Positions 8,876 through 51,545 of a DNA stretch of 64,000 nt are shown here, piece after piece. The notes below the pieces were generated by a model that saw only the letters and a list, made by a program, of their open reading frames with translations, did no database searches and was not told the DNA's origin. Each line of letters begins with the position of its first letter. Position 1 is the stretch's first letter. The stretch comes from Acholoe squamosa (Eukaryota; Annelida; Polychaeta; Phyllodocida; Polynoidae). The DNA is taken from NCBI GenBank assembly GCA_949317995.1, contig OX439041.1, positions 44,935,269 to 44,999,268 of the forward strand. Reading direction: 5' to 3'. The translations under genes were made by a program, and so were the position numbers.

Positions 8876-11800
8876 TTATAGCAGCACCGTCATAGATGAC
8901 ATGGTATTGGTGGCGTTATCAGGATGGTCTGGTACATTGACAAGATGAACCTCATCCTCCTTTGCCTTCCCTCCATCCTCCAACCTCTCCACCACAGTCC
9001 CACCTCCCTCTACGCCCTCCTCCATACCCTCTAACACAGTCTGCTCTGGTCCCCTCCTGGCGCTCACTGGAGGTGCCCTGCTTCCTGGAGGCCCTACAGG
9101 TAAAGATGTGCTGACATTATGTACAGGTACAATTCTATTGTTCCTGTACTTCTCCAGGGTCCTCTTTTTCTTCTTCCTCCTTCTGGGTGAGGGTGGCTTC
9201 CTGAAGAGCCTGACGTCCAGGTACAGGAGAAGGATTATCCAGGCAAGCAGGAGGACGGCACCTGTAGCACCAAAAATGGCACCATAGGCGGCTTCTGTGG
9301 TAGGGTATGCTGAATGGTATGTGTCCTCTGAAAAAGAAATGCAAAAAAGTGTTGATTTATGATTCCCCTCAATGTTCTGCCGTATTCATTCACCTTGGCC
9401 TTCAATGTGGTGATTAGGTAAAAGAAAATATGCTCACAACTACCGCACCTCACTTTTGCAAAATAAAACCATTACTCTTGCTTTACAAGCAGCATAAATT
9501 TATGTTTTGAATGGAAATGCTTTCTTGCTCAAAAGGATAAAGGAAATTAATTGTGCCATATTAATGTTGTGCTATCTTAACTTGTAAATGATACAATAAA
9601 CTGATATATTACAAAGGTTCACTCACTCTCACAAGAAGATAATGGGGGCACCCAATTGCCCCCTTCTCCGCACGTGGATACTAGGTATGTGTCGCCACTA
9701 GGGAACCGGAAGTTAGGCTGACAGGACACATTGACAACCGACATGTACTTCCTGTCTGTTGTGTCTGAGATGAGAGAGTCCCACACGGGGACATGGGGAC
9801 ATGAAATAGCTGTAACATAAAATGCAACAGCCTATTGGTTCAAAAAAGAGAGGGTATATTTACAGATTGTGTATTGTCTGTTTGACACAATTAGCCTATG
9901 TACCACGTTTAAGTTGGGCCTGAGTTGTATGAAAGATATGGAGGGATAATCAATAAAGTTCGGGAGAACTAGTTGTAGATAATATTAAATTTTAATAACT
10001 GTTGCTATAATTAATAATGCCAAAGTATTTATATGCAAATGAAACATTTCATGGAAAACTGTCAATAACCAACACAGTGAGTAACTCGTTGCACTACATT
10101 GGTGCATCCTGCTAACCCTTTGATACTTTAACAATCCCTGAAATAATGTCAACACCCACCAGAACAGTTTGGAGGTGCAGGTGTCCAGTACCCATCAGGG
10201 AGACATTTGGTGGTCACCGCTGTACTACTAATGGTGGTGCCCTCTGGTGTGTAAAAAACGTATCCAGGGGAACATTGTAGGGTGACAACGGTCCCTACCG
10301 CCCTCTGCTGACTGCTCACCATACGATGGGGGCTGTCAGGCAGTTCATCACATGATTCCACTGCCAAGGGAGACCATTTGTTATCTTTCATTTTATTAGA
10401 TTTGTAATCACTAGATCATTCAGTCTATTTAGGACATGGTGATGGCACCAACTGAAACTAGAGTTAAGTCTCTATTGGTGGATGTCATTTAGGTTATCTT
10501 GGTGTAATAAAAGGTGGGCGTGATAACATATGCATCACTTAAACTTTACTGTCCTGTTACTAGAAACTCAGATAGATACTAAAAGATTAGGCAGTTCACT
10601 TTCAAGAACTAAGATATAGAACACTGTAAACCTACCTGATGGTGCCTCTGTTATCTGTGCAGTATCTGCTGTATCTGCGTTTGTCTCTGCAGTTGTGACA
10701 CTGTTCTGCCCAGATAAAACATTGATAATAAAACTTCTCCTCTGACCATTAGGTGTAGAGTTTATGACAGAGCTGTCCTGGGTTGTGACAACAGGTTGTG
10801 TTATAGCACTAGTTATAGAGCCTGTAGTAAGTGTTGTAGTAGTAGTGTCAGCAGTGGTTTCTTCTGTCACTGTGACAGTAGTGGTTGGGATGTTAACAGC
10901 TGGGGGATTTACATCTATAGGGGCAACAGCATGGACTGCTGACATAGCACTCTGGTTAGGTTGGTCAGCTGGAATAAAAAGAAATACATTGTACCATGTC
11001 ATTGTTTTAAATTGGAAATATCCACATTTTCGAACGGTGATGCAGGGCTGGATTACTATAGATCTATGCAATTTGTATTGTTAAAATCTTAAAATATCTA
11101 CACAACTTTTCTAGGTTAGAGTTTCAATTTTATTTACTATCATAGTATTATCACAAAAGCATACATGAGACAGATGATGCGTGATTTACTGTAGACTTCC
11201 TATGATAGGACCGACCAATGCCTCAAGTAATAGTCCAATTACATCCAATCACATGTAGGTCTGTACTTCGATATAGATCTGATATAACAATTATACAGAA
11301 AAAAATAATCCAGTGCACAAACCATTGATAACTGTGCTTTTCTCACACAGAAACACATGCTGCAGGGAGCACGGTGCTGCCACCCAGTAGTCGCTAGCTG
11401 AAAGAGCGGCTCCACATCCAGCGGGGTTCGGTGTCGCCCCCTGCCAGCGGGTCCAGGTAACAGGCCGACCGTCCGCCCAGTGCCATGCTCCACTAGAAGC
11501 CTCCAGTCCCAACCAATATTGGGTATAACTGGAATGGATAAATGAGTTGTGAATTAAAATCTTGGTAGTAAATACATTGCCAGACCCAAGAAGTAAGCTT
11601 GTTTTGTGGTCGAACTTCAATAGGAGTGCACCTGTGTCAATTGCCACTTTTCGTATACTACTTACTCCCATACAATGTGAAATATTCATTCACGGTTTCC
11701 AGCTTCCAAATCCATCATCCTTTGCAAGGGAAATATTTCTATCTATCTCACACATGTCGATTCATTTTCTTGGGGGAAATTGAGCTTTCTAAGGGGTTTT

Positions 11801-14800
11801 AATTCTGAGGTACATGTACCGCGACAAAAGGTTTCAATTCTGAGGTACCTGTACCGCGACAAAAGAGTCTTTTTCTGGCAGAGTCTCCAAAATATGCGGC
11901 CAATTTTACACACTTACCTGAAGCAGACGACATTTTTGCCGGCAAATAGCCTCAAGACTTCCTGTCTCTCATCGCTTGTCTCAAACTGTGCCAGGCTGTA
12001 GCCTAGAGCAGCACATAGTTGGTGTGCCCGTGTGTAGTTAGCCTGGTGTGTCACGTAACAGTAGTGACGGGAATGCACAAGGTCATCAGTATGGATCAAA
12101 CAGTTATCTGAAAAGGACAGATAAATCAATTCATTCTAACAATGTACAAGTAGACTACGTTAGGGAACGAAAACAATGAGGTTCATTAGGGCTTAATCAG
12201 ATATACACTCTGTGATCTGTGAAGATCTAAGTTACACTTAATTACAAGTCATGTATTAAGTTAAATGGAGTATAGCGTTTTGGACGCTGTCCTATCCCCG
12301 ACCCTCCCAATGGAAAAGTAGGCTTGTTATTCTAAGTAAAAACGAAGAGAACATTGGGATCATAATGATGCATTTAGACATTAGTATTTTAATTAAGAGC
12401 CGAATCGTCGAAAAAAAGGAGAAAAAGAATGAGAGAAGAAAATCTTGACAGCAGTCAAAGTGTAGTGGGGTCTATATATGCTACTACTTATCAAGGGAGA
12501 TATACAGGGTCAACCACTATAAACATTACCTTTCACTTTCTCACAGACTATTACATCCGGGATGTTGTTGTCACACGGCCCGGAGCGCCACCTGTGGGCT
12601 GAGCTGGTGGCCACGTATGCGCACGCAGCTGACGTGTTGGAGAGACTTCCCTCTGAGTAAGTGTCCGACTCCCAATTCTTCCAGGTAGGTTCACGACAGT
12701 CGAGCCATTTTAACCACTCCTTTGGTTGGCCATTCTCACGCAGCCGCATCACACGCAACCAGTAAGCATCCACCCTGCAGGATAAGGTAGATAAGATCAT
12801 AGGGTGAAATATGTCTGGTAAGCATTCATCCTGTAGGGTTAGGTGAATAAGAAAGTGGGGAGAAGATTCAACCGGGAACCCCCCCCCCCGCCCCCTCTCT
12901 AGCAGGACGTCATCTGTGGATGGTCCCCAGTGAGCACGCAGTCTGTAGGGCAGGTAGATATGAAATATAACTGAACTATATAAAATAGAGGATTGACTGC
13001 CTGGACATGTTCTGTCTTTGGTCATGTTCTGTGAGCTCCATTGCTGACTGGCCAGGAATTTGTGTTGCTTATGGACAGTTAGCATAGTAAGACCACTATT
13101 GTAGACTGGACAAAGATTTGTGTTTTATTTAGACTGGATAGGAAGTTGTATTCGGTCTTTGGAGACTGGATAGGAAGGGATTTATTTGGTCTATGAAGAC
13201 TTACCTATAATGAGACCAACATTGATATCTGGCCAATAAGATGTGTTGTTCACAGAGACTTTAATATCCTTACTGAGACCACCGTGACCGACTAGACAGG
13301 AAGTTGTGTTCTGATTGACCGTCTATGGTGACTTACCCATACTGAGACCACCATGACCGACTAGACAGGAAGTTGTGTTCTGATTGATCGTCTATGGTGA
13401 CTTACCCATACTGAGACCACCATGACCGACTAGACAGGAAGTTGTGTTCTGATTGACCATCTATGGTGACTTACCCATACTGAGACCGCCATGACCGACT
13501 AGACAGGAAGTTGTGTTCTGATTGACCGTCTATGGTGACTTACCCATACTGAGACCGCCATGACCGACTAGACAGGAAGTTGTGTTCTGATTGACCGTCT
13601 ATGGTGACTTACCCATACTGAGACCGCCATGACCGACTAGACAGGAAGTTGTGTTCTGATTGACCATCTATGGTGACTTACCCATACTGAGACCACCATG
13701 ACCGACTAGACAGGAAGTTGTGTTCTGATTGACCATCTATGGTGACTTACCCATACTGAGACCGCCATGACCGACTAGACAGGAAATGTGTTCTGATTGA
13801 CCATCTATGGTGACTTACCCATACTGAGACCGCCATGGTCGACTAGACTTAAAGTTGTGTTCTGTTTAACTCTCCATGTAGACTAACCCATACTGAGACC
13901 ACCATGACCGACTAGACAGGAAATGTGTTCTGTTTGACTGTCTACACTCTGAGCCTGCATTGTAAATCGGCTACAAATAGCCCTGTAATTAGGCAGGGGA
14001 ACCACTTGTAGCTACAGTACTATGCACTCCTGGTATGGGCATTCATGCCTATACAAGGTAATACTGTAAAGCACAATAAAAAGCCTTACATGGGCGGGTT
14101 GACAGCGTATCATAACTTACCCATACTGAGATCAACATTGCTATCTGGCCAATAATATAAGTTTTTATAGAGACTTTAATATCCATACTGAGACCACCAT
14201 GACCGACTAGACAGGAAATGTGTTCTGTTTGACTGTCTATGGTACCCACTTAACAAAAATACATTATTTAACGTCAAAAAAGCGTTTCTACCGTTTTAAA
14301 ACGTTTTGCCATGATGAGGAGCCATAGGGAAACGTTTTGAAACGTTTTTTGTTGACTGGGTAACTTAGCGATACTGAGACCACCATGGTCGACTAGACAG
14401 GAAGTTGTGTTCTGTTTGACTCTCCATGGAGACTTACCCATATTGAGACCACCATGGTTGAGTAGACAGGAAGTTGTGTTCTGTTTGACTCTCTATGGAG
14501 ACTTACCCATACTGAGACCACCATGGTCGAGTAGACAGGAAGTTGTGTTCTATTTGACTGTCTATGGAGACGAGGAAGTAGCCTTGCTCTATGCATGCCT
14601 CTACTGCATGCTGTATACTAGTTGGTGTTGTGGCCGCTAGGAGGCAGTAGGAGGTGGAGGTGATGGGGTCAGTGGCTGTCTCTGTACACAACAGGCTTAC
14701 TGTAAAAGTAAAATTCGATGTAAGTATAGCAAGATTATGTATAGTAAACATGAACCTACTCAAAAACACAGGATCTCATGGATAGGGTACATATCACATA

Positions 14801-17397
14801 GTGTAACGATTATCCGACTAGGCTTACGTATCATATCCCTGGAAAGCACTACAAAGCCCAGCGACTTCTATTTACTATGTTTATTGATTAGCAACTCAGA
14901 GCCACACCATATTGATAAGTTTTAGAGTCATTGGAGAACTTCTAGATAATCATTTTACTAGATCTGTTGCCACTGCTACCCGGACTTGGCTATCGACACA
15001 CACCGTCTCATATACACTGCAAAAATGGTGTTTAGACCCTAAACACAATTCTAAACATATTCTTGCAACGTTTTTGTAATCTCATTAATTTCCTAAACAT
15101 GTTTAGCAAAACAATGTGCTTAGCTCAGGTATTTAAAAATCTAGGTGCTAAGGTTCAAAATTTGTGTTTAGATATCGATGGAATTTTGCCTTTAGATGTT
15201 TATGAAAGTTTGTGTTTAAAGGTCTAAGGGGTTTGTTGGGAGTTTGCAAACATGTATGCATCAACAATAAGAATATCTTTTGTTTGTTTTCTCATTTACT
15301 AGAGGACATCAGCAGGTAACAACAAAGCTTCCCAAGATGACAGCCACAGCTATATACACATATATGTAGACACTGCACTAGAATGAGAGACTTGAGAAGG
15401 TACAAAAGCTTGAAAGGTCATTGCTTTATTCTTTACAAAATAACATGAAATAGGTGTCAGCCATGGAACTCATTGATTATTTTATGCCAATGGTGGTGGT
15501 TCAGTTGAATTCAGTCAATTTTCGATTGCTGTTTCTATTTTCATGACTTTCAATGAAATGACACTAAGATGAACAAGAGGTTTAAGGACATATGTCAGGA
15601 CAATTGATCATAACAATGTGCAGAGTTGTGGATTTGACGTCCAAGTATCTAAACATATTGATGTTAAATCTAAACACCTAGTATTCAACTGTTTAAAATC
15701 TAACATCTAAACATGTTTAGCAAAAATGTTTATGTATTTAGAATAGAAGTGTTTTTCTAAATGTGTAGCTGATGAGACACCTAACTGGCATATGTCTTTA
15801 GATTTTAAACATGTTTAGACCTAAACATGTTTAGACCTAAACATGTTTAAAATCTAAACACCATTTTTGCATTGTACATGTACAAGGGAACTGCTCAAGC
15901 ACACTTCTGCATATTCTTTGATGTTCTATATAAATGTTGCTGAAGCTACAAAGCATCTTCTGTTTAATAGCCCCTAATATATCTAAATTGTTGTCATCCC
16001 TTGTACTTAGTGTGCACATTGCCGTTGATTCAGTGTTCAATCAATGTTTGCAATGTTTCCATATCAGCAGGTGATTCAGGGTTGAAATATATTTGAACTT
16101 GAAAGTTGACACAGCATATCCAAATCAACTGTGATTCAACATCTAACCATCAGTGCTGATTCAATGTTTGTATTTCTATGTTGAATCAACATGGTTTAAA
16201 TGTTGTTTCAATGTTGATAGTTGCTAGGTGATTCTTAGTTGACATGTCAATGTTGAATCAACATTTAAATTAATTTCATTGATTCCATGTTGACAAATAA
16301 ATGTTGAATCAACGTTGAATTGGGAACAAATTTCAACATCAATATGTCAACTGCTGATCTGCTGTTAAAATGGTGATGATTGAAAAAATGTTGAAGACAC
16401 TATCAACACAAATCAACCAGTTGTCAAAGTTGATTTGATGTTCTGTGCCAACTGGGAAACGGCCACAAGGCTGGCTATAGGGCTGACCCGGAATACATTT
16501 TCAACCAATAAGATGACTCCCTTCATTCACTGCAAGATTTTTTGGGTACATTATGTAACACCTGGTACCCATTATGTGAGTTGTTATCAGTCCTTATCTT
16601 TCCTGGTCCAAGATCAAGCAATGGCGGACCCACTGGACCTCAATACTAAAGCCCTATACTGCAGACATACAATGCACTACACGTTATTACATTCCCTCGG
16701 TTGTGTACTTCTGGGACTTAAAAATTGCAACTCTTTTTTAGGCTACTGGCAGTTACAGGACCCAGTCTTTGAGAACACCTACCCCCACTGTACAGAGTTG
16801 TTGTGAAATTACAGCAATCTTTGGTGTAAATCAATAGGGGAGTGTGCTGTAATCCTAATACAGGCATTATTATGACTCCATAACGGCTTCACATAGGCCT
16901 AATTAGATCTACCTGAAAATTCTTTTATTGGATACTTCAAGTGACATAATATCCCTATCAATACATTGTTAATATGGTAATAACTTTAGGTAAGTTCACT
17001 ATATCACCATGCACAATAAATAACTTGCAATGCTTTGTGAAATAAATCAAGAACAAATAACAATGTACACATTAGGCACTATTCCTATGTCTAAATTTGG
17101 TGCCTGGACTCTGAAGTTGCTGCCACTAGGTCTCTCTAGTGTCATAACTGAGTGGCTGGACAAGTGTCCAAGTGTGTTTAAGTATGGGTAGATTCCTATT
17201 TTCCTGGTACTGCACTGGGATTGGCGACATAGGAGGGATGGGGGACCAACATGGAAAGTTCATAAGATATTCATTATCCCAAGTTGTATACCCCCAAACT
17301 TTATATTATTATAGAACCATAGAACTAGAGTTAACAACTTACCTGGTATGATAGAGGTTACAATAATGAGCACACACCCAGGGTACAGCCGCCACAT
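8876..17397 (-). CDS. Membrane receptor with two C-type lectin domains and two Sushi domains (complete, 9 coding exons)
   Basis: Predicted type I cell-surface protein of 685 aa, probably for glycan or protein recognition. Coding exons, in transcript order: 17397-17343, 14699-14507, 12774-12530, 12107-11918, 11528-11323, 10968-10636, 10360-10160, 9809-9627, 9327-8876. Every junction is GT-AG and phases match (1,2,1,2,1,1,1,1). Total 2058 nt, ending in TAA. Exon 1 encodes a signal peptide (MWRLYPGCVLIIVTSII). Exons 2-3 form lectin domain 1 (about 20-160; ends VIVCEK). Exons 4-5 form lectin domain 2 (about 165-293; YWLGLE, FLCEK). Exon 6 is a Thr/Ser-rich, mucin-like stalk (about 297-407). Exons 7 and 8 each encode one Sushi domain. 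Exon 9 has a membrane segment (about 551-571), then a Lys/Arg-rich stop-transfer stretch and a ~110-aa tail. Neither lectin domain has the WND calcium motif at the expected place (WRSGPC and WVAAPC instead), so calcium-dependent sugar binding is doubtful. No named orthologue is recognised. Confidence 0.9.
9810..10159 (-). other. Intron between the two Sushi exons
   Basis: Phase-1 intron with donor GTGGGT at the 10159 side and acceptor TTACAG at the 9810 side. Nothing else was recognised inside. Confidence 0.8.
12764..12960 (-). repeat. Duplicated exon 3 acceptor boundary in lectin gene intron 2
   Basis: The plus-strand segment 12764-12796, spanning the exon 3 splice acceptor, recurs at about 12818-12849 with substitutions (shared skeleton 'gtaagcat.ca.cctg.agg'). 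A weaker copy lies at about 12929-12962. Read on the minus strand, each copy presents an acceptor-like ctgcag or ctacag followed by exon-like sequence. The G/C run at 12880-12890 lies between copies. Confidence 0.65.
13200..14580 (-). repeat. 69-bp tandem array made from the 3' end of lectin exon 2 plus its splice donor
   Basis: At least 14 units, period 69 bp (68 in some). On the minus strand each unit reads as the end of exon 2 (from 'cagtcaaacagaacacaact' to 'ggtctcagtatgg') followed by GTAAGT. Units are centred near 13290, 13358, 13427, 13495, 13564, 13633, 13702, 13771, 13838, 13908, 14204, 14388, 14461 and 14530. The last one is the true exon 2 end (donor at 14501-14506). Older, more diverged copies extend toward ~12990. 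A small foldback element interrupts the array at 14273-14356. 69 is a multiple of 3. Confidence 0.88.
14273..14356. mobile_element. Small foldback element inserted in the 69-bp array
   Basis: The inverted arms are built from AAACGTTT-type motifs: 'gtcaaaaaagcgttt' and 'ttttaaaacgttttgcc' against 'gggaaacgttttgaaa' and 'cgttttttgttgac'. It separates two units of the exon-end array, so it is younger than the array. Confidence 0.65.
15018..15871. mobile_element. DNA element with terminal inverted repeats, in lectin intron 1
   Basis: It starts TGCAAAAATGGTGTTTAGA and ends with the complementary TCTAAACACCATTTTTGCA, about 854 bp. Many internal copies of 'ctaaacatgtttag' lie near both ends (15050-15240 and 15645-15850). 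There is no transposase frame, so it is non-autonomous. Confidence 0.85.
16020..16440. repeat. Clustered TTGAATCAACA palindromic motifs
   Basis: This AT-rich stretch holds about ten variants of 'tgttgaatcaacatt' in both orientations (for example near 16183, 16245, 16300, 16312). It looks like the core of a foldback element or a degenerate repeat. It lies in intron 1 of the lectin gene. Confidence 0.6.
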
Positions 17398-17545
17398 CCC
17401 ACCTGTCTATCACCTGTTGCCGCACCTTGCCTCCTGGAGGCTGTATGCCAGGCGGACCGTGGAGTAGCAGGAAGCCCCAGCACCTCACACCTTAGTCTGG
17501 GGAATCCCTCCTGTATGCAGCCACTGCCACATCCACCCAGGCTTG
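17398..17545 (-). promoter_or_regulatory. Likely 5' UTR and promoter-proximal region of the lectin/Sushi gene
   Basis: Sequence immediately upstream of the ATG at 17397. It is more GC-rich than its surroundings and has no upstream signal-peptide extension. No TATA box is obvious, and the transcription start is not determined. Confidence 0.4.
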
Positions 17546-19799
17546 ACTGGGGACAAGGGGATGGGGTGAGCTTCAGGTAACAACTAGAGGCGAAATTCTA
17601 AGGATTTTCACCATTATTTTCTTTCAAAACTTGACCTTCCTTTTCAATGTAGATCATATGGAATAGAATTAAGACATAGTAAGCAGACAATTACTTCGAC
17701 TTTGTCAAATTCTAGGGCTTTATAGAGGGCCTATGAATTAATAATGTATATGGAGGCATTGCTGTTTTGTTTATTTATAGTGATGTCTATTTTAACTTGA
17801 AACACCCTTCATATTTATCTAGCCTTGAGGGTTCAACGCCTATATAATGCCCTTTAATAAAGGCTTCTGCCTTGGGTAGATGGTACCTTTGCTTACACCA
17901 AAGCAAATATAAATAAATACAGTAGGGAGCCTAGGGAGCCCGTGGTGGGAAAATCAATGAGCGTGGGGATGAAATGGGAAAAGGAAGTGGGAAAGGGTAT
18001 GGACAGAGTTAAGATAGCGAAGGGGAGGAACGCATCAAGCTCTAACAAGCATATGAATACCTTGATTAATGATGAGTTAATCTAAACGTCTTTAAATTGC
18101 TTGCTTCCATATTTTCAGTAAGGAATATTTTGAAAATACACAAAAACAAGCAGTACCATTCATTTATTCCTCATGTTTGTATAATGTGTCCAAGTGTTTT
18201 AACACATTATTGATCGTCTATTGTGTGCCAGGAGTTATCCCAGCATCCAGAACTAGCGCTTCCTGGTAACCAAGGAGACTTAGTGTATACAAGGAACAAC
18301 ACACATCCCTATGGCGATAATAGGGGATGACGTGTGGTAATGCAATGCTTTTGTCTGCCAAAGTAGACACTTCCTACTACATTTCATCCATCCTGTGGTA
18401 GAGTGAGTGATGCATTATATTTTAGCTTTATGGTATACCTGGCAAGCATCATATATATGCAAGCCTACTTGGAATTATTGGTTCATGTAATGATTTTGGT
18501 GATTTTCTTTTTAAAAATCTGTTTTAGCTAACTTGACATTAATACTTGATGTTCATTGACAGATTTCTCTTACACCTCTGGCATAATGCATACTTGTTGG
18601 CCTATATATTGATTCATCAGAGTTATAGAAACGGAAGTAAGTATGTTTAATTAATGAGACCTAAATTCCAAGCCCGTGCCTTTTTTTTTTTTTTTGCTCT
18701 TTTTTTTTTGTTCTATGCACATTATCCATGGACATCAACATCAACATTTTTCTACTGGAACCTTAACTATTGACCTGAACCGAAGTGGACACTGCCACGC
18801 CTATCACATTATAAAATACTTTGGTATCACCGAGGTTTATACCCTAGCTTTGATTCTATCAAGTGATAACATTGATTGAATCTCTAAAGATTAAGCAGGT
18901 CTGTAGATATGCTGGGAGTGCGTAATGCCACCACATTCATATGCATCAGAGTAACGAAAGGGCACGCGTGTAAACCGTATGCTAATCTACGTTACGTGTA
19001 AACGGCGGTAGTAAATGCATGGGAACAGCATATATGGGATTTGGTCCTGAAACAACTGAGTCGTTCTTATGTACGCACTCCCCTGTCTGAACCACACAAG
19101 TGCTCTTATGGAAGCATGTCAAAATCATAGAGTTGCTCTTACACGCGCATACTTAATGTCTGAACCACAGGGGCCTATCTCACATAGGCTAACGATTCCA
19201 AAATTCACTGATATTACTGGAGAGACATGAAGTCGTCAGAGATCCCTTAATTTAAGCATGACAGTCATGTCTAAATCATAGAATCACTCTCTTCAGGCCT
19301 AGTGCTGTCCTGTGCAAGCACACCACAAGTCCAAACACAGTTCTTTTGATCTTATGATCTATTATAGACCTGCTCTTATAGTGTACTCATCATGTCCATT
19401 CTCCACCCGTCACCCCGACACGAGCAGCACCAGACCGTGGAGGATGACACTGGGTAAATCCCACAGGACCTGCATCCTGGGGACCCGGATCAATGGTCGA
19501 CATGCTCCATTACACATTTACACTCTCCTATCGGATATATAGATATGGTGATCCTGTTGGTAAGCAGGAAACACACAGGTAGAATGGATAAAGTGTTGTG
19601 GATCTATGGAGAATTAGTTACAGCCTCCCCAGATGTTATGACAACGGACCTAGACCTATAATCATATTGCTGGCTGGCCATTATGGTTAGATTTTGGCGT
19701 TAGGGTTAGGGAAGGAATTACCAACATAAGCAGACTTACATCACCCCAATGATATATATGCAGGGATAGGCGAGATTTCTATAATTAACTTCTTTTTGA
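17546..19799. other. Intergenic stretch, nothing recognised
   Basis: No exon-like sequence. It contains poly-T runs at about 18680-18712 and a short TTAGGGTTAGGG at about 19703. A 76-codon frame at 19312-19542 has no domain or splice context. Confidence 0.5.
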
Positions 19800-20325
19800 C
19801 TTCCATGTACTACTCTTCCCCAAATTTAATTTCCTCAACTGCTCCCTCGTTCCCATATACTACTCTATATTTCTACATACTACTCGTTTCCATATACTAC
19901 TCCACATTTCTACATACTACTCCACATTTCTGCATACTACTCATTTCCATATACTACTCCACATTTCTACATACTACTTAGGGAGTGGGCATTTATTAAC
20001 AACAGGGGGGGGGTGAAATTCCGCACATGCGCGGCGAAAATTTTTCCGTCCCCCCCCCTCCGAGGGGTCCCCCCCCTTTTATTCTATAGTCACGCGCTGG
20101 CTTTTTCGCTCAAAAGGGACGAAAATTTTTTTGTCCCCCCCCTTAGAGGGGCCTGAAATTTTTTTGTCCCCCCCAACCCACCAACCCCCTCTGTTGTTAA
20201 AAAATGACCACTCCCTTACTTCAATAAACTACTCCACTTTTCTACATACTACTCGTTTTCATATACTACTCCAGTTTTCTACATACTACTTGTTTCCATA
20301 TACTACTCCATATTCATATATACCT
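19800..20325. repeat. Minisatellite of 'catatactactccacatttc' type units, split by a MITE
   Basis: Irregular units of roughly 16-37 bp built from 'ttctacatactactc' and 'ccatatactactcca' occupy 19850-19980 and resume at 20220-20320. The break is exactly the MITE at 19981-20215, so the array predates the insertion. Confidence 0.8.
19981..20215. mobile_element. PIF/Harbinger-like MITE, copy 1
   Basis: The ends GGGAGTGGGCATTTATTAAC and GTTAAAAAATGACCACTCCC are inverted. The element is flanked on both sides by TTA, a 3-bp target duplication. The interior has G and C runs with repeated 'aaaatttttttgtcccccc'. 3-bp TNA duplications with GGG-starting ends are typical of PIF/Harbinger MITEs. Confidence 0.8.
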
Positions 20326-20959
20326 TGTCTACCAGAACCTGGCGTGGCACACAGAAAGCTTTGCTAATGATTTCTCTGTCGAAGTCTAATACCCGTTGGT
20401 CTGTGGTTACAATAAGGCAAAACTAATGACCATTCCCATAACATGACATCTCTCCTTCAGGGTTGTTAATTGAAGTTTGAATGAACCAGGTCTAAGTTTT
20501 TTATGGTATATTATGATACTTGTATAGGAATGAGGCTGACTGACATTCACACTACCCAGGACTTAAGCTCCGGCTCCTCTCTCCTTTGTAATGGGAAGGG
20601 ACATAACACAGCTAAACAATGTTGACTAATCTCATCAGGTGGCAGCACTGAGTAGCCAGACCTCCAATGACGGGCTTTGCTAACCAGAGAATACCAGTCT
20701 CATTTGTGATGACATATGAAGTTGACCTGGTCTAATAAAGTGTTTGTCAACATGGATGAAAGGCTGGAAGCACTTTATTTTACGTATATATCCTTGATAT
20801 CACCATGCTTAAAACCCAGAGAAAAAAATGAGAAGTTACCAGCACAGTCTAAACAGTTGATGGGTAAAGGAAATCGAGACACTTAAATGTCTTTATATGT
20901 CAACTCTTGTTAGAGCTTTAAGTCTAGGAGGTGGGGGGCGCCAGGTCCTCCCAGATAAC

Positions 20960-21560
20960 CTGTTCCACTTAGGGTGCGGCTTATACGAGGGGTTTTCCGT
21001 ATAAGGGAGTGGTCATTTTTTAACTTTAACAACGGGGGGAGGTCGTTGGTGGGTTGGGGGGGGATTTCAGACCCCTCTGAGGGGGGGACAAAAAAAATTC
21101 AGACCCCTCTTAGGGGGGGACAAAAAAAAATTCGCCCCTTTTGAGTGAAAAAGCCCGTGCGCCACTTAAGAATAGAAGGGTGGACAAAAAAATTCAGACC
21201 CCTCCAAGGGGGGGATGGAAAAATTTCAGACCCCTCCGAGGGGGAAACGGAAAAATTTTCACCGCGCACACGCATAATTTCACCAACCCCGTTGTTAAAA
21301 AATGACCACTCCCTAATACAGTTGTGTATACTTAACTGAACAATGGGTACCACCTAAGACGCCTGCTGCAGCTTATAGCATTCTCCTAAAGTAAGGGTGG
21401 AGCTTCTAGGAGTAAATTCTCTCGTATAAGCGTGGCTTATACCAGAACCCAAAATGAAACGAGGCTTATAGAATCTGCCCCAAATCAGGATGCGGCTTAT
21501 AAGGGTGTATTTAATCCTATAGAACAGTACTAAATCATAATTTTCAACCCTTAGGTGTGG
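20960..21560. repeat. 'Gcggcttata' repeat family, interrupted by MITE copy 2
   Basis: Sequence with repeated 'gcggcttata(c/t)gag' and 'aggcttatagaatc' phrases lies on both sides of the MITE at 21005. Related stretches occur at 28480-28690 and 30525-30600. It is probably an old dispersed element. Confidence 0.55.
21005..21313. mobile_element. PIF/Harbinger-like MITE, copy 2
   Basis: It begins GGGAGTGGTCATTTTTTAAC and ends GTTAAAAAATGACCACTCCC, flanked by TAA on both sides. The interior repeats 'ttcagacccctc' next to G runs. A minus-strand frame at 21099-21353 is a by-product of these repeats. Confidence 0.85.
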
Positions 21561-21888
21561 CCTGTAGCTTCCTATCTAACTCAGGCTCCTTTCCATGCAC
21601 TACTGCACATACTACACATTTCTATATACTGCTATACAGCATTTTCAAGCTCCAGATCCAGTTCAAAGCACAGAGTCAGGGTGCGGCTGATACATTATAC
21701 CAGTTTCTATTGTACAATGAGGTTAAAACTTACCTTTGAGACACTTAATCTACCTCCATTTAGGCTGACATTAGATCTAACATCGGAAAAATTCTAAGAA
21801 CTCCCCCCTCCCTAATAAATGGAAATTCATTAATTTCTCAGTGGATTTGCACAGTTGCCAGGAATGGTCTATGTGAGCATCAAAAACC

Positions 21889-22838
21889 ATTGCCATATAA
21901 GATATTCCACATTTCTACGAGCTCCCCTACCCATTGCCATATAAGATATTCCACATTTCTACGAGCTCCCCTACCCATTGCCATATAAGATATTCCACAT
22001 TTCTACGAGCTCCCCTACCATTGCCATATAAGATATTCCACATTTCTACGAGCTCCCCTACCCATTGCCATATAAGATATTCCACAATTCTACGAGCTCC
22101 CCTACCCTTTGCCATATAAGATATTCCACATTTCTACGAGCTCCCCTACCATTGCCATATAAGATATTCCACATTTCTATGAGCTCCCCTACCCATTGCC
22201 ATATAAGATATTCCACAATTCTACGAGCTCCCTACCCTTTGCCATATAAGATATTCCACATTTCTACGAGCTCCCCTACCCATTGCCATATAAGATATTC
22301 CACATTTCTACGAGCTCCCCTACCCATTGCCATATAAGATATTCCACAATTCTACGAGCTCCCTACCCTTTGCCATATAAGATATTCCACATTTCTACGA
22401 GCTCCCCTACCCATTGCCATATAAGATATTCCACATTTCTACAAGCTCCCCTACCCTTTGCCATATAAGATATTCCACATTTCTACGAGCTCCCCTACCC
22501 ATTGCCATATAAGATATTCCACAATTCTACGAGCTTCCCTACCCATTGCCATATAAGATATTCCACAATTCTACGAGCTCCCCTACCCTTTGCCATATAA
22601 GATATTCCACAATTCTACGAGCTCCCCTACCCATTGCCATATAAGATATTCCACAATTCTACGAGCTCCCCTACCCTTTGCCATATAAGATATTCCACAT
22701 TTCTACGAGCTCCCCTACCCATTGCCATATAAGATATTCCACATTTCTACGAGCTCCCCTACCCTTTGCCATATAAGATATTCCACAATTCTACGAGCTC
22801 CCCTACCCTTTGCCATATAAGATATTCCACATTTCTAA
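21889..22838. repeat. 44-bp tandem satellite, about 21 copies
   Basis: Unit 'attgccatataagatattcc' followed by 'acatttctacgagctcccct' and 'accc'. Two variable positions alternate between copies: CCCATTGCC or CCCTTTGCC, and CCACATTTC or CCACAATTC. Some units are 43 bp. The 44-bp period makes long open frames on both strands; these are not genes. The unit shares TCCACATTTCTAC with the minisatellite at 19800. Confidence 0.95.
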
Positions 22839-22964
22839 CCTCATGCTTAAAGCAGTCTTATACGAAATGATTTACGGCACCATTCCTCCATCTCTAGATT
22901 ACACCATTTGATTATAAGTCCTATTTTCCATATATATGTATACTACCGGGTACTTGCTTATACC

Positions 22965-23140
22965 CGGGCTTCCCTAGCCTACTTAAAAGGGTTTATTTCT
23001 CCTCTTTCCTATCCCCTCGGGATGTGTGTGGTGCACATATGCGCAGGCACTGACACATTCCTGTGAAATTGTGTAATGTAGTTCTCGCCATGAATATGAC
23101 CTTAGCTGTCGAAATGGCTTTAAACATCTATTACTCACTC
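22965..23140 (+). mobile_element. Short retroposon (SINE or 5'-truncated LINE) with 13-bp target duplication
   Basis: The 176-bp insert is bounded by identical 13-mers ACTTGCTTATACC at 22952-22964 and 23141-23153. It ends in a TTACTCACTC microsatellite-like tail, as LINE-mobilised elements do. Its 3' part ('gccatgaatatgaccttagc', 'tgtcgaaatggc') recurs at 50366-50480 and, diverged, near 43700. Confidence 0.85.
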
Positions 23141-23164
23141 ACTTGCTTATACCACTTCATGATT

Positions 23165-24110
23165 TACTTCTACCAGATAATTCGGCCGATATTTCTTTCA
23201 TCTTTTCTCAAGTACATCTATTTGGGAGTTTGAATGTTCCAAGTACTTTGTCCAAGAGTTGGTCAATTCCTGAGAATCCACAGGATTTGTAGTAGAACTG
23301 ACGATTACATTCAACAGGGCCTGATCATGGCATCACATTTTGTACGCCGAGGCTATCCTAAAGAAATGGTAGCTGAGGCCTTTATAAAGGCCTTACGAAA
23401 ACCACGACCTGACCCAAGCATTTGGTGATCTGATAAGAAAAAGAAATCGGACGACGCACCGATAATTCTAATCACAACCTTCCATCCCACCTTCAATGAT
23501 TTGCAAAAAATCATTAGAATAAATTGGGACCTGCTAGCACAATCAGCAAGAACCACGGCCCTACACAGTACTAGACTAGTGATGGGCCTACGGAAACCCC
23601 CGTCGATAAGATCTCAATTGGTACGAGCCAAAATAGATTACCATCCCGGAGAGGTAAGAAAACACAAGGCAGCGATTGGTGGAAAAATTGCCAAAAACTG
23701 CCTAAGTGGTACAAGATGTAGATATATTGCCCCAAACTCAACAAAACAGGGAAAATCACATCAAGAAACGGCAAAGAATTTGAAACAAAATACAATGTTA
23801 CCTGCCGAAGCACAAACCTGATCTACTGCCTAACTTGCAAAAAATGCAAGATGCAATGTGTCGCATTATGGGAAAATCACCCACAAACTTTTAGAAACTG
23901 ATATAGGTCGACACTTCAACACAGAGAACCACAATGGTCTCGATGATTTAGAGATCCATGTCGTAGATTTTATCTACCAGAGTCCACACAGCGATTACGC
24001 AGAAAAACTACGAAACAAAATCGAGAGGAATTGGATGCTGAAATTAGCCACCCAAATCCCCAATGGCCTGAATCTGATAGATGCACCCAACTATTGATTC
24101 ATTTTGGTTT
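23165..24110 (+). pseudogene. Penelope-like element, broken 3' half (RT end plus GIY-YIG endonuclease)
   Basis: Translated fragments match the C-terminal part of a Penelope-like retroelement polyprotein. 23234-23428 carries the distal reverse transcriptase region (RICS and FVRRGYP motifs). After an in-frame TGA at 23426, the same frame continues to about 23770 with a segment ending in 'RKPPSIRSQLVRAKI'. A frameshift then leads to IYCLTCKKCKMQ, and a second frameshift near 23857 leads to IGRHFN and the final PNGLN, ending at 24097. The CxxC and GIY-YIG-type C-terminal region is characteristic of the family. The 5' part is absent, so this is a dead, truncated copy. Confidence 0.8.
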
Positions 24111-42900: not shown

Positions 42901-44658
42901 AGATGGCAGCACATACTTACTACGACAGAACAGGCGATAGCAGTCGTTATGGACTTGAGATATAAATATGTTCTTTTTATGGGTAGACCGATTTAAATCA
43001 CCCTATTCTAAACAGCGTAAAGATAGACCGATAGTATTATAGACACATTCAAAAGACCTAATCCCAGGCTTTGCATTTGAATTCGATTCAGATCTGGAGA
43101 CTAGATCTCATATATAGATTAGGTCCTCAGATTCCCCCTGTAACTTTAAACTCACGTACCAGATAACGGTCGATATAGTATGGAAGTACTGGATTGAAGT
43201 TGGTATGGACAACATTATTTCACACAACATTTTGGTACAAACCCCACTTATACTAATGTTTACTACAGCCTTGTAATATATACTTAAAAAGATAAAACAA
43301 CAACTTTAGAACGCTGAGATAACTCCTTTGATGGAATGAATTTGGATGGGACATTTTCATAATAGAAGAAACGGAAATGAATTTCTGACACTCATTATGG
43401 GAATTCCATTCCATAGGTGGCTTTTTGGCCAATCTATACTTTATTTCTCAGAACCTGGTTGGCCGTTCTGATCATTAATTCATATGGACCACGTAAGCCA
43501 AAAAAATTGTGCACTTCACCTTGTATTTACTTTATAAGAGATATTATCAGTACTCCTATATTTATGTCATAAAATTGGGTCCCTGGCCCGTTCTAAGAGG
43601 TCTGAATGTGATATTTCCTGTTACTTTTGTGAGTTGTGCAGGAAAGTACACACATTGTTTTATGAAAACTAGGGTTTATGTCTGATGAAGTTTCTCAGCA
43701 TGAATATGACATTTTCTTTCCAAAAATGATGTAAACTAACCATTACTCACTCACTTACTCAAAAACCACAACTTCTACAACTTGTCGCATGAGTATGCGT
43801 TAAGTAGAACCTTTATCAGCCTCGCCAATTGATGGGATATGATATATAATGCTAACTATTGCCCCTATGGTATAAGCATCCAGTAGTGTACGTACCAGGA
43901 GGCAGGCAGGTGTCTCCAGGGGGTAAATGGCAGGATGGCAGGTGAATGCTTTATATTCCCAACGGTAAAACTCAAAATTAAATTTGGTAAAAGATGAAAA
44001 ATAGCTGAGGAAGTTATTCTATTTAGTTTGTAAGAATATGGCCCGAATCAGGTTTATTTTGTATACATCGGCGATACATAGAATACACATTTTACGTTAG
44101 ATTTGGTTAAAGTGAAGTACATTGACTGTAAGGTTAGATAGAGCTACCTGGCAAGAGACCTCTTCATTAATGAAAAGGTATGATGTATGGTATTGCAATA
44201 TCGACAGCTTCACCAAAATTTATTTTTCTAATGAATATGGTCCACACATCTTCATTGAGAGAACATGACATGTTTACAAGATACATATTTTCAGAGGGTT
44301 TAAGGTAGCTCACAATTCAGTTCTGATACGGCCTACCCACTTAACTGTTGCAGCAAGAGTGGACACAGTTCATTGCGGGGTTTATATCATTGTAATACCT
44401 ATGTGGACGGTACAGCTATTTCTAAACACTGATAGGATATATCTATATCTTCATGAGAAGCACATCATGCTAAACCTGCAGGCCTGTGAGAGGCAACCTC
44501 CAGCAAGGAGTGTACTGCTTATACAAAATTTAAAGTTCGACAATTGAAGTCTTGAGGCCATGGGTTCTGACACATGTGACAAATGTGATCCCTTTGAGGG
44601 AGCAGAGCTCTACTTTGAGTAACTCAGCCAATATAAGGCTTTTATCACTAATGGTGAG
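39965..44658 (+). other. Intron or intergenic interval, nothing recognised
   Basis: 4.7 kb of AT-rich sequence without a convincing exon. A diverged copy of the retroposon tail (catgaatatgacattttc ... attactcactcac) lies at about 43680-43765. Short frames at 40412, 41558 and 44359 lack splice sites and domains. Confidence 0.5.
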
Positions 44659-47600
44659 ATGGATAGCTCTAATCCTAATGTAGCTGTAGAGATGACATCT
44701 GATGACAAGGAACCAACTCACAGCTCTCATCTTTACCAATCTGGGATAATACCACCAGCAGAAACAATTCAGAAAAATGATACAACTGACAGATCATTAG
44801 AATCAGAGGCCTTTGGCAGTTACACCCTCCCCTGTCGCCCAGATATCCCAGCCCTGCAACGTAGCACTAGTGTAGGAACAGCAGCAGATATGTCAAGATT
44901 CAAAAGCAAACATGTACACTGGGACCCCAATATTGCTGTACCCTTCTCAAGGAGATGGAGCTACAATGCCCATGGCCAGAGCACCCCAGGGAGGCCACGG
45001 CGAAGAAGGATGGCCTCCAGAGGTAATGATGGTGTTCTCAATGGTGATCCACATAATGAAACCTACTTACAAGTATCACTTTGTATCCCTACAGCGTATA
45101 TCATGGATCAAGATGAAATTGAAAATCTTACTTTATGGTCAGATGAGACTAGGCCCTTATCAGTGTTGGATAAAACTGATATGGAGAGGGGTGTAAGACC
45201 AAAAGTAGACATCTTAGACACCACCGACTGTCTAACAGTTACAGAGGATTCTATTGATATCTCCAATAATCCTTCAGCATGTCATACTGATAAGGGGAGC
45301 AGCCCTAGGAGACAGTCAAAACATCATGTATATAGAGAGGCAACCATCTTAGATGAAGTCGATGAAGACTGTATAAGTCAGTCTATGATAGCAGAATCTG
45401 CGGGACTTGAAATGATGTCAGGATTCATTGCTGATTATACCAATCAAAATACTGCATCTCGGGAGAAATATGATACCACGGACACTGAATTTTCCTCTGA
45501 CAGAAATGAGAAGAGTATCTTGAAAGAAGAAAGTGAACAGGTAGGAGCCTATGAAACCACTGAAAGTATCGGTCAAACTGAACCCAGTGTCATGGGGCAC
45601 ACAGGATCCCAAGATGAAAACACTTTACTGGACACTGCTTTTCCACTGAAGGGCACCGCCCAAGGCGATATTCAGGCAACTGGTGACCAAATTAGAATTG
45701 ATATGAAAACACAACTGCCTCTTGACTCATCAACTCAAGATATTTTTCAGCGAGAAGAAATAGAGGAGACCAGCGTGGAAAGTGCAGATACCCCAGAACT
45801 TTTGCAGGAACCTGTCAATTCAGCTGATCCTTTAGATGAGGATGCTGTCCTTAATCTTGGATACATCACTCTCTGCCTACCCACTGAGGATCAATCCAGA
45901 AGCCAGGTATACTGCAGTTATGCCACCCTGTTCCTAGGAGTGGAGGAAGAACAGCAGGAGGTCTCAGTAATAGAAGATATAGACATTAAAGAACCCACAT
46001 TTTCCTCACCCTCTATACTTAAAGTGAAAAGCTGCAATGGTAAGGATGGATATGTATGTGGTAATACATTGTCTGGGAAAGACACCTCAATGGGCGAAGC
46101 TGTTGGGGAAGCAATATCCATTGCAAGTCCGAGCCTGACCTCTCAACTCGAAGATGGTAGCAACACAGGCATAACGGATGATCTTTCTGATTCAGGTCTG
46201 CAGTGTAACATTGCTGTTGCAGAAGAAACAGATAACATTAGAAATGGGAGTTCAAAACGTAATCAGAACTGTAGTGGTATTTCTGTTGAAGACACCTCAA
46301 TATGCCCTGGTACTTTGTCTGATTTAGCCCAGGTCTTTGATGTAAACATCCAGGAAGACCTCACTGAAAGAATTCTTTCATCAGAAATGGGTATAATCCA
46401 GATAGATGCAGATTTTGAAGATCGGTGTGAGACTGTGGATGTAGTAGATAACGCCCATCTAGATACAGTGTGCCTAGAAAAGGGCATGGGACTCACAGGG
46501 GCCAGCAATACACTTCATATTAAAGAGTCTTCTACAACAAATGTCGAAGGCATTTGCTTCAAAGATCCACATGTTGGAGAAGACCTAACTCATGAGGGGA
46601 GTGTAGCACAATTTGGAGCAGGTCATACTCAGTCCTCCCCTAATGGGTCCAATAGTTATCATGATGTCACGGGGAATGAGATGTGTAATAAGGAATTCAA
46701 ATTGCACAAAGCAGACAATGATTGGCAAATCTGCGTAATAGATCCAGAGAAAGAGAGCATTAACAATGCACATTCCCTTACTCAGCTCCACTCTGGTGCC
46801 TATCCCGCTGCAGGCGAGGAAGGCAAAGATATGGCTCTAGTGACAGAAACAGTAGGTGAGAGTAGCTCTGATGGTTCAGATCTGAGTAACAACTATCCCT
46901 GTATAGACTTAGATCTAACTGAGGCCTCAGCCATAGACAAACAGCTGACAGCCCTGGCTGATCTGCAATCTACACCCTTCACTGGTCTCCTTGACATTGG
47001 GTCATCTTCAGATGAAGAATACTTTCTAGTAGTCACTTCAAGCAGTAACTTGCAGAACGAGCCCCAGTCATTGGTTGATCATTTCGATAAGTGGCTGATT
47101 GATGAAAGGAGTGAGGATGTGATAGAAGAGGAGGATGGTGATGCCATAGAGGATGGTGATGTATTAGAAGATGTGTCTGGTAATGTTAAGAAAGATGAGG
47201 TTGGTGATGTCATAGAAGATGAAGCTCTTGATGCTCTTGGTGTGAAAGACGATGAGGTTGGTGCTATGATGGAAGATGGGGCTGCTCATGTGACGGAGGA
47301 TGTGGTGGCACCGGTCAACGAGCCCTGTGTTACTTATAGTATGGTGGAACACAACATGCGTCAGAGTAAAGGAGAATTGTATTTACAGAACAGTTGTGGT
47401 GATTCCTTTAAAAACGAAACAGGACTGTATGAAGTTTGCATGATGGATAATAACAACGCACCATTTCAGATTGATCATTTTGAAGCAAACGCTGTAAGTT
47501 TTAGCCGAAATTCCTCGTACTCAAATGAGTTGACCGAAATTGACGGTGATGCCAATTTTGACCAACCAGCAGAGGAAGCTAGAGAGAAAAGGAATGTCCC

Positions 47601-49113
47601 AGAAGATGCTGACATTATAACGACGGCAGGCTCATCCTACATTGTCAATGAAGACGTACCATCAGATCAGCAGGACCTAGTGCCTATAACTGATAATATC
47701 AATAATTGTATCGCAGCTGGGGGAAGTACAGTAGATATTGCATCTATGGAAATAGTTGATACCCCGCCACATCGTAACAGTCGCATTCCAGGGAAGCACT
47801 ATTTACAAGTCCCTTTACCAGAATGGCAAGGCGGTGAGGGAATTGCACATAATAATGATTTGGCCAAGCCTTGTGGTCCCAAAGATGCAAATAACATTGA
47901 TAGTTTGGATAATATCCACCGTGCAATAATCAATAAGCGTGTTACTCTTGGTCTTACAATGGAGGCAGGGTGCCTTGAAAATCTGGTGAAAGGTGTTCAG
48001 TGTAATGTGGCGTTAGATAATAAAGACTCTGACTTTGATATTGCCGACATCACACACAATTCAAATGGGCCAGATGATAATTTGGGAAATGTCTCTGAGG
48101 AAAATGACATCTTGGGTGAACCTACTGAGTCTGGTCATGGAACTACCAGCAAAGAAGATGAACTATGTCCAATAGGTAATAGGGAGGAGAAGGTAGAGTT
48201 CCAAGAACAGATGAATGCAGACATCGCCACTGGGGTGGAGGCTGATATGCATGAGAACACTATCACACGTAGTTTGATACAGATACTGAACAATCAACAG
48301 AGAAGCTCACCCTCAGATGGTGGAGACAGCAATATTGGTATTGAAAGAACTGACGCTGCTAGAATGGAACAGGATGTCAATAGAATAGTCCCTGTAACAT
48401 ATGCTGAATGTGAAGTATACATTGGAACTAGAGACCCAGATACTGGCATTGAATCAAAAGATGAAGAAGAAAGACTTCTGAATGAGGTTATAATAGAATC
48501 AGGCCACGTAGCAGAAACCCCAAGTTCAAGATTACACGAACCACGAAAGGACACGATCCACATAACAAAAGATGTACCTGAAGTTTTCCAGGCTACTCCT
48601 GGAGAATCTCAACAACCACCATCCACAGCAAGAGGATCGTTAACACATAGAGCCACATTCCCACTGGAGGAGACCTTCTCCACAAACACCTCCAGGTCCA
48701 TTAATAGTACTAAGGCCCTCCACAGCCATCCTCCAGGGTCTAGGTTTGGGCGGCCACGGCTTCGACTATTTGACCCCTCCCGACTGTGGCGGCGGCTGTT
48801 TGGTGGGCGGAGGGAGAAGGAGTTACCAGAGAACCACAGCCAGAGATACATCGTGCTCCAGGGTGCTGGAGGCACCCGGGAGGAGGCAGGGCGAAGGGGA
48901 GGGGGAGGACACTGGAGGAGGTCAAGCAGTATGTCCTTCCTCCAGCAGGGTGATGTGGTAACGGCTAGAAGTACAGCGGCAGGATCATATCCTTCACACC
49001 AGGGCCTGCACCAGTTGCTGTTTATGGTAGGTAGTGTGTACTATGACATGCAAGTTACTAATTGGGAAACTCGTATACGTACAGAACCCCTGATACATTT
49101 TCGCTTTGGATGA
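44659..49113 (+). CDS. Giant acidic single-exon reading frame, 1484 codons
   Basis: A 4.45-kb uninterrupted frame in an otherwise stop-dense region, so clearly coding. I recognise no family. It is rich in Asp, Glu, Ser, Thr and Asn and looks intrinsically disordered. A basic patch lies near residues 95-120 (RRWSYNAHGQ, RPRRRRM). Short acidic repeats of the type DGDVLED/VGDVIEDEA occupy about 815-890. The C-terminus turns basic and Arg-rich (SRLWRRLFGGRREKE, then GGGGHWRRSSSMSFL), about 1360-1440. A consensus donor (ATG|GTAGGT) after 49026, phase 0, would give a 1456-codon exon and drop the last 28 codons. The in-frame stop at 44620-44622 makes the ATG at 44659 the first Met; alternatively 'ggtgag' before it could be a phase-0 acceptor, making this a symmetric internal exon of the JAKMIP-like gene. 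It may equally be its own first exon. Confidence 0.8.
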   Translation: MDSSNPNVAVEMTSDDKEPTHSSHLYQSGIIPPAETIQKNDTTDRSLESEAFGSYTLPCRPDIPALQRSTSVGTAADMSRFKSKHVHWDPNIAVPFSRRWSYNAHGQSTPGRPRRRRMASRGNDGVLNGDPHNETYLQVSLCIPTAYIMDQDEIENLTLWSDETRPLSVLDKTDMERGVRPKVDILDTTDCLTVTEDSIDISNNPSACHTDKGSSPRRQSKHHVYREATILDEVDEDCISQSMIAESAGLEMMSGFIADYTNQNTASREKYDTTDTEFSSDRNEKSILKEESEQVGAYETTESIGQTEPSVMGHTGSQDENTLLDTAFPLKGTAQGDIQATGDQIRIDMKTQLPLDSSTQDIFQREEIEETSVESADTPELLQEPVNSADPLDEDAVLNLGYITLCLPTEDQSRSQVYCSYATLFLGVEEEQQEVSVIEDIDIKEPTFSSPSILKVKSCNGKDGYVCGNTLSGKDTSMGEAVGEAISIASPSLTSQLEDGSNTGITDDLSDSGLQCNIAVAEETDNIRNGSSKRNQNCSGISVEDTSICPGTLSDLAQVFDVNIQEDLTERILSSEMGIIQIDADFEDRCETVDVVDNAHLDTVCLEKGMGLTGASNTLHIKESSTTNVEGICFKDPHVGEDLTHEGSVAQFGAGHTQSSPNGSNSYHDVTGNEMCNKEFKLHKADNDWQICVIDPEKESINNAHSLTQLHSGAYPAAGEEGKDMALVTETVGESSSDGSDLSNNYPCIDLDLTEASAIDKQLTALADLQSTPFTGLLDIGSSSDEEYFLVVTSSSNLQNEPQSLVDHFDKWLIDERSEDVIEEEDGDAIEDGDVLEDVSGNVKKDEVGDVIEDEALDALGVKDDEVGAMMEDGAAHVTEDVVAPVNEPCVTYSMVEHNMRQSKGELYLQNSCGDSFKNETGLYEVCMMDNNNAPFQIDHFEANAVSFSRNSSYSNELTEIDGDANFDQPAEEAREKRNVPEDADIITTAGSSYIVNEDVPSDQQDLVPITDNINNCIAAGGSTVDIASMEIVDTPPHRNSRIPGKHYLQVPLPEWQGGEGIAHNNDLAKPCGPKDANNIDSLDNIHRAIINKRVTLGLTMEAGCLENLVKGVQCNVALDNKDSDFDIADITHNSNGPDDNLGNVSEENDILGEPTESGHGTTSKEDELCPIGNREEKVEFQEQMNADIATGVEADMHENTITRSLIQILNNQQRSSPSDGGDSNIGIERTDAARMEQDVNRIVPVTYAECEVYIGTRDPDTGIESKDEEERLLNEVIIESGHVAETPSSRLHEPRKDTIHITKDVPEVFQATPGESQQPPSTARGSLTHRATFPLEETFSTNTSRSINSTKALHSHPPGSRFGRPRLRLFDPSRLWRRLFGGRREKELPENHSQRYIVLQGAGGTREEAGRRGGGGHWRRSSSMSFLQQGDVVTARSTAAGSYPSHQGLHQLLFMVGSVYYDMQVTNWETRIRTEPLIHFRFG

Positions 49114-50589: not shown

Positions 50590-51545
50590 AGTGAGTTGAG
50601 TGAGGTGAGTCCTCACAGTGCCCTTAGTCAGGGTGGCTGATGCAGAGGGAGAGAGCAGAGTGCCTGGGGGAGTGAGGTGAGTCCTCACAGTGCCCTTAGT
50701 CAGGGTGGCTGATGAAGGGTACAGAGAGCAGAGTACCTGGGGAGTGAGGTGAGTCCTCACAGTGCCCTTAGTCAGAGTGGCTGATGAAGGGTGCAGAGAG
50801 CAGAGTGCCTGGGGGAGTGAGGTGAGTCCTCACAGTGCCCTTAGTCAGAGTGGCTGATGAAGGGTGCAGAGAGCAGAGTGCCTGGGGGAGTGAGGTGAGT
50901 CCTCACAGTGCCCTTAGTCAGGGTGGCTGATGAAGGGTGCAGAGAGCAGAGTGCCTGGGGGAGTGAGGTGAGTCCTCACAGTGCCCATAGTCAGAGTGGC
51001 TGATGAAGGGTGCAGAGAGCAGAGTGCCTGGGGGAGTGAGGTGAGTCCTCACAGTGCCCTTAGTCAGGGTGGCTGATGAAGGGTACAGAGAGCAGAGTAC
51101 CTGGGGGAGTGAGGTGAGTCCTCACAGTGCCCTTAGTCAGGGTGGCTGATGAAGGGTGCAGAGAGCAGAGTGCCTGGGGGAGTGAGGTGAGTCCTCACAG
51201 TGCCCTTAGTCAGGGTGGCTGATGAAGGGTACAGAGAGCAGAGTACCTGGGGGAGTGAGGTGAGTCCTCACAGTGCCCTTAGTCAGGGTGGCTGATGAAG
51301 GGTGCAGAGAGCAGAGTGCCTGGGGGAGTGAGGTGAGTCCTCACAGTGCCCTTAGTCAGGGTGGCTGATGAAGGGTACAGAGAGCAGAGTACCTGGGGAG
51401 TGAGGTGAGTCCTCAAAGTGCCCTTAGTCAGGGTGGCTGATGAAGGGTGCAGAGAGCAGAGTGCCTGGGGGAGTGGGATAAGTCCTCACTGTGTCCCTGG
51501 TGGGGGGTGGCTGATGAAGGGTGCTGAGTTGACGGAGTCAGGTAC
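50590..51545 (+). repeat. 73-bp minisatellite, about 12 copies
   Basis: Unit of 72-73 bp, beginning 'gagtgaggtgagtcctcaca' and continuing 'gtgcccttagtcagggtggc', 'tgatgaagggtgcagagagc', 'agagtgcctgggg'. Two unit types (gggtGC...agtGCctg and gggtAC...agtACctg) are interspersed, and in the middle of the array they alternate. Each unit holds a GAG|GTGAGT donor-like site in the sense of the surrounding gene. Confidence 0.93.

Follow-up and report, generated by a model that had tools for sequence, protein, structure and literature searches.

The lectin gene and its second exon

The window, meaning the whole 64,000-nucleotide stretch of DNA that was analysed, carries on its minus strand a lectin gene whose exons were predicted from acceptors, donors and reading frame. 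When splicing is taken to proceed from the first donor of exon 2, nine exons join with consistent phases into an open frame of 685 residues. In the joined translation a hydrophobic leader is followed by two C-type lectin domains and a Ser/Thr-rich stretch, after which come two sushi repeats and then a hydrophobic stretch with a basic tail behind it. Pfam gives Lectin_C matches in both halves of the product and two Sushi matches, and the hydrophobic stretch and basic tail were read from the translation. The product is predicted to be a membrane lectin, a recognition receptor. A protein search of the genome with the lectin gave 34 matches. Nine belong to this locus, the other 25 are weak (best E 0.0013), and the search found no close paralog of the gene. 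The features of the gene are as follows.

17343-17397, minus strand: proposed exon 1, with start codon, hydrophobic leader and donor CAG/GTAAGT; a prediction that joins in frame
14507-14699, minus strand: exon 2, 193 nt, first half of lectin domain 1; placed by acceptor, donor and frame
14501-14506, minus strand: authentic donor GTAAGT of exon 2
14506-12775, minus strand: intron 2, 1,732 bp
12530-12774, minus strand: exon 3, second half of lectin domain 1; its acceptor closes intron 2 at 12775
8876-12107, minus strand: exons 4-9, encoding lectin domain 2, the Ser/Thr-rich stretch, two sushi repeats, the hydrophobic stretch and the basic tail

The proposed exon 1 was the sole candidate to pass a scan of 14720-24000. 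One of the Lectin_C matches spans lectin domain 1 as it is joined from exons 2 and 3, the two exons that flank the intron of interest here.

Anatomy of the 69-bp array in intron 2

The original prediction held that the end of exon 2 is tandemly repeated, along with its donor, as a 69-bp array in the sense of the gene, and a profile search shows that this array is real. The repeat unit joins the terminal 65 bp of exon 2 (14571-14507) to GTAA of the donor. Its exonic side opens with GTCTCCATAG and its donor side closes with GTAA, which becomes GTAAGT through the GT that starts the following unit. There are 14 clear copies of the unit, namely the exon itself and 13 copies in intron 2, all in the gene's sense; the 13 intronic copies have nhmmer E values of 2.7e-17 to 4.4e-26 and are beyond chance. 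Intron 2 also holds, on the same strand and between 14150 and 13029, five faint copies with E values of 2.9e-4 to 0.083. The proposed figure of at least 14 copies inside intron 2 thus becomes 13 clear copies, the fourteenth being the exon, plus the five faint ones. The next-best matches to the unit in the window are on the opposite strand and elsewhere, with E values of at least 0.53. When the whole genome was searched with the unit, the best candidates, which were the ones scored, included 14 matches, all at this locus. No Rfam family reached the gathering threshold in 12000-15500. Following the gene away from exon 2, the array is organised as listed.

14365-14502, minus strand: the two units nearest the exon, with the donor intact at 14437 and broken at 14368
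14251-14364, no strand assigned: insert between units, of which 97 bp have 88.7% identity to an unrelated sampled stretch (L048:5409-5505)
14117-14250, minus strand: a clear unit with a broken donor, then a faint unit with an intact donor at 14120
13952-14116, no strand assigned: spacer between units that matched none of the other DNA it was compared with
13264-13951, minus strand: main block of ten clear units, with eight intact donors from 13818 to 13336, GTTAGT at 13887, and a broken donor in the last unit
13023-13263, minus strand: four faint, decayed units, one of which retains the donor TAGGTAAGT at 13204

Because the 97 bp recur in an unrelated stretch of the genome, the insert at 14251-14364 is taken as a dispersed repeat.

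The authentic donor had been correctly assigned, as GTAAGT at 14501-14506, which reads 14506-14501 on the minus strand. The sequence TGGGTAAGT is found at this donor (14506) and again at 14437, 14120, 13818, 13750, 13681, 13612, 13543, 13474, 13405 and 13336. It had also been claimed that each copy has a usable-looking donor, which was too generous: the donor is intact in only nine of the 13 clear intronic units, to which two faint units (14120 and 13204) can be added, giving 11 later donors. The donors of the other four clear units are broken, as CTAAGT at 14368, ATATTA near 14182 and near 13267, and GTTAGT at 13887. The two that have one form (GGATATTA) are located in blocks that resemble each other, and may therefore represent a single event. 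These blocks (14117-14250 and 13201-13332) look like mutual copies, as from a larger duplication within the array, and in both a clear unit with a broken donor is followed by a faint unit with an intact one. Pairing with the U1 end is equally strong at all 12 donors (-10.3 to -10.5 kcal/mol), whereas the next best of the 153 GT sites in the intron reaches only -6.4 kcal/mol, and there are thus 12 strong U1 sites within 1.3 kb. Counted over both strands of the window, 63 of the 7,495 GT sites match the authentic donor in strength, and the 12 are among them.

Sequence change among the copies was assessed over the 13 intronic units. The GGTAAGT columns depart from the majority in 11% of cells and the other columns in 7%, and 54 of 65 seven-column windows are as quiet as GGTAAGT or quieter. 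With the exon as reference, the donor columns differ in 11.0% of cells and the body in 13.0%, and there are two faint units in which the body has decayed and the donor is perfect. These last observations leave a little room for selection on the donors, and taken as a whole the alignment gives no clear sign that the donors are held by selection. It had been suggested that the units act as a decoy array controlling donor choice. As the donor bases are no better conserved than the rest of the unit among the copies, a decoy role finds no support here. Identity to the exon is highest in the two nearest units (94.4% and 91.5%) and falls to 81.7-88.7% in the other eleven, and at one column the exon differs from all 13 intronic units. 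This gradient and the exon-only column are the pattern of units that are homogenised internally with the edge of the array left out.

Donor choice, reading frame and possible microexons

Reading on past exon 2 gives GGG TAA directly. The donor itself completes an in-frame TAA, and the use of any later donor therefore leads to a stop after residue 83 (11 of 11 cases). With nine of the 11 later donors the message would grow by a multiple of three nucleotides, and the stop is unaffected. The original prediction had drawn attention to a unit length that is a multiple of three; this is true of the length, yet each intact donor brings its own in-frame TAA. It had also been proposed that the locus could splice from many donors; such splicing would cut the protein short and would not vary the receptor. 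Protein variants made by donor choice alone are thus ruled out, and the donor-built stop shows why such arrays cannot easily lengthen proteins in this way. With the later donors, the distance from stop to junction is 65 to 1,298 nt. Under the 50-55 nt rule, which comes from vertebrates, such messages would be targets of decay.

Which donor is used may be predicted from the architecture of the exon. Exon 2, with 193 nt between introns of 2,643 and 1,732 nt, falls into the exon-definition class. Since an exon of this size between two long introns would be recognised across the exon, the first donor is probably the one used. One study reports that exon-definition minigenes with two equal donors 52 nt apart used the upstream donor exclusively, that intron definition favours the downstream donor, and that in about 60% of human events the downstream donor is the preferred one before strength matching (PMC9225289). 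As the minigene cases differ from the present one (human cells, two donors), first-donor use at this locus is a prediction. The locus offers a natural test of how a spliceosome settles on a single donor when a dozen pair equally well with U1.

A second route to altered proteins would combine a later donor with a new acceptor. Cassettes of 20-400 nt were assembled by pairing an AG with any of the 11 donors, and of the 292 tried the frame is fully open in 13. Nine of these 13 are 24 nt long, and eight of the nine lie in clear units.

13337-13842, minus strand: eight possible in-frame 24-nt microexons, each flanked by a weak TAG as acceptor and by an intact donor, the first at 13842-13819 and the last at 13360-13337; a sequence prediction

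In most units the predicted insert would be the eight residues RSWRSQYG or RSWWSQYG, the second of which was read from one unit, and it would sit in lectin domain 1. The minisatellite might then serve as a bank of interchangeable in-frame 24-nt microexons, the AG having arisen inside the copied exon. The TAG acceptor is present in 12 of the 13 clear intronic units and is missing from the exon and the nearest unit. Acceptor strength was judged with a crude matrix built from the gene's eight real acceptors, each of which was scored by leaving it out in turn. Six of the eight candidate acceptors score 1.1 and the others 5.8 and -5.4, compared with 0.4 to 9.2 for the real ones, but the matrix rests on only eight real acceptors, and a score of 1.1 or higher is reached by 1,204 of the 7,886 AGs in the window. 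There is little variation in the acceptor columns, and of 60 twelve-column windows only four are equally or less variable, a figure that is not significant once the choice of window is counted. Against such a bank, a single base change that created the AG and was spread by homogenisation is enough to explain all eight candidates, and no more than 45 nt would separate one microexon from the next. We regard it as very improbable that the array works as a microexon bank; a microexon route to protein variants is possible on the sequence, but it is not indicated and is unlikely. If it did exist, array length would set the proportions of normal, variant and dead messages, since use of a donor alone leads to the stop.

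Origin of the array and comparison with known boundary repeats

We are fairly confident that the array is a mirage-type minisatellite, and most likely a tolerated passenger that enlarges intron 2. The original prediction was right about the origin, namely an exon boundary turned into a minisatellite, as the unit consists of the exon edge and the start of the donor and recurs in 13 clear sense copies. The array would have started when the final 65 bp of exon 2, together with the first four donor bases, were duplicated into the intron, probably with the aid of the GT that is common to the donor and the exon at the join, a plausible slippage point. The copies would then have spread and been made alike through slippage or unequal exchange, with the exon itself left out, while the older ones decayed and acquired inserts. 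The first donor is probably still the one at which splicing occurs, and any messages from later donors would stop after residue 83 and be lost; for these two reasons the array is most likely a passenger.

Other readings of the array give it a function or deny that it exists. The later donors might be partly used, in which case the stop after residue 83 would send those messages to decay and copy number would set the amount of lectin. The tie in U1 pairing between the 11 later donors and the real one agrees with this, as does the location of every resulting stop 65 to 1,298 nt before the junction. However, four of the 13 clear copies have lost their donors, the donors are no better conserved than the body of the unit, and the exon-definition data predict use of the first donor (PMC9225289). 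We therefore consider a rheostat or decoy of this kind unlikely, if less so than the remaining candidates. The array could also be a platform for U1 that would protect a long transcript from being cleaved too early. The 12 strong sites in 1.3 kb would suit such a role, but extra conservation of the donors is again not seen among the copies, and we give this idea very little weight. Tandem arrays are in general prone to misassembly, and the repeat could be an artefact of the assembly; the copies differ by point changes and are separated by inserts, which makes this the least probable of the readings.

Boundary minisatellites called 'mirages' are known from amphioxus, in Adh3, troponin C, the globins BflGb6 and BflGb9, and PGBD5 (PMC3087553, PMC3902484). 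The lectin array is a real example of this known kind and shares three structural features with it. It is a tandem repeat across an exon-intron boundary, comprising 65 bp of exon 2 and GTAA; many but not all of its units have splice signals (9 of 13 clear units); and it shows the same homogenised inside with the edge left out that is described for the globin mirages (PMC3087553). Mirages may also differ in length between haplotypes or cells; the lectin array is represented here by one assembled copy. In detail, the BflGb6 units are 150-160 bp long and repeat an acceptor side; the lectin unit, at 69 bp, repeats the donor side, which it has in common with BflGb9 (PMC3087553). The host gene also differs, as a lectin is not among the amphioxus mirage genes named. 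As to effects on splicing, one report has RT-PCR on Adh3 and the globins suggesting no interference of the mirages with regular splicing (PMC3087553), and the other states that the Adh and troponin C mirages generate no aberrant mRNAs (PMC3902484).

Two human cases offer partial parallels. In the interferon-induced gene IFI6 (6-16), a minisatellite supplies several donors at an exon end, and two downstream repeat units act as donors, giving three mRNAs (PMC4526556). The later donors of IFI6 lead to protein isoforms, whereas all 11 in the lectin array would lead to the stop after residue 83. In genes of human segmental duplications, boundary minisatellites are tied to new introns and cryptic splice sites (PMC2812944), and alter exon or intron length between close paralogs; for the lectin gene the genome search found no close paralog. 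The description of the lectin array as unusual must accordingly be tempered, given similar arrays in several amphioxus genes (PMC3087553, PMC3902484) and in human IFI6 (PMC4526556). In one open-access library, searched with a few sets of terms that did not include 'lectin', reports of boundary minisatellites concern amphioxus and human genes only, and novelty for other animals is not established. If the host is not a lancelet, boundary minisatellites are no lancelet peculiarity. The interest of the locus lies in its extreme donor competition and in a probable extension of such arrays beyond lancelets.

When each exon of the gene was compared with the DNA within 1.5 kb of it, exon 2 had 22 same-sense matches and none of the eight other exons had any. 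Of the 25 weak lectin matches elsewhere, 11 loci (E 0.0013 to 0.018) were examined, and none of these has a donor-bearing array; at one of them (L019) the hit is accompanied by a same-sense match, which is an AT-rich stretch. Arrays in general were sampled in 20 evenly spaced 10-kb stretches from only the three largest contigs (C1-C3, 200 kb), counting those with a period of at least 25 and a TRF score of at least 100, with GTRAGT sought on either strand. In this small sample there is no sign of a genome-wide class of donor-bearing arrays (2 of 18, against 1.2 expected from shuffled units, P = 0.34).

Several further features were seen. On the plus strand of the window, 44623-49110 is a stop-to-stop open frame of 1,496 aa with no match in Pfam (E up to 0.001) or PDB (E up to 0.01). 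Two arrays at 50598-51528 (73 bp) and 51626-51803 (53 bp) are related and have units with GGTGAGT or GGTAAGT, the 53-bp unit also containing CTTGCAG; we do not take them as boundary repeats, because each resembles the other and the rest of the window holds no match to either. A 44-bp array of about 22 copies lies at 21887-22837, with faint matches to arrays near 19.9 kb. In the random sample, a 50-bp array (L033:6579-7147) has units with an AGGTA motif and a GTAAGT-like motif, and a single 10-kb stretch holds two long minisatellites of 52 and 37 bp, with about 22 and about 35 copies (L044:342-1475 and L044:8188-9465).
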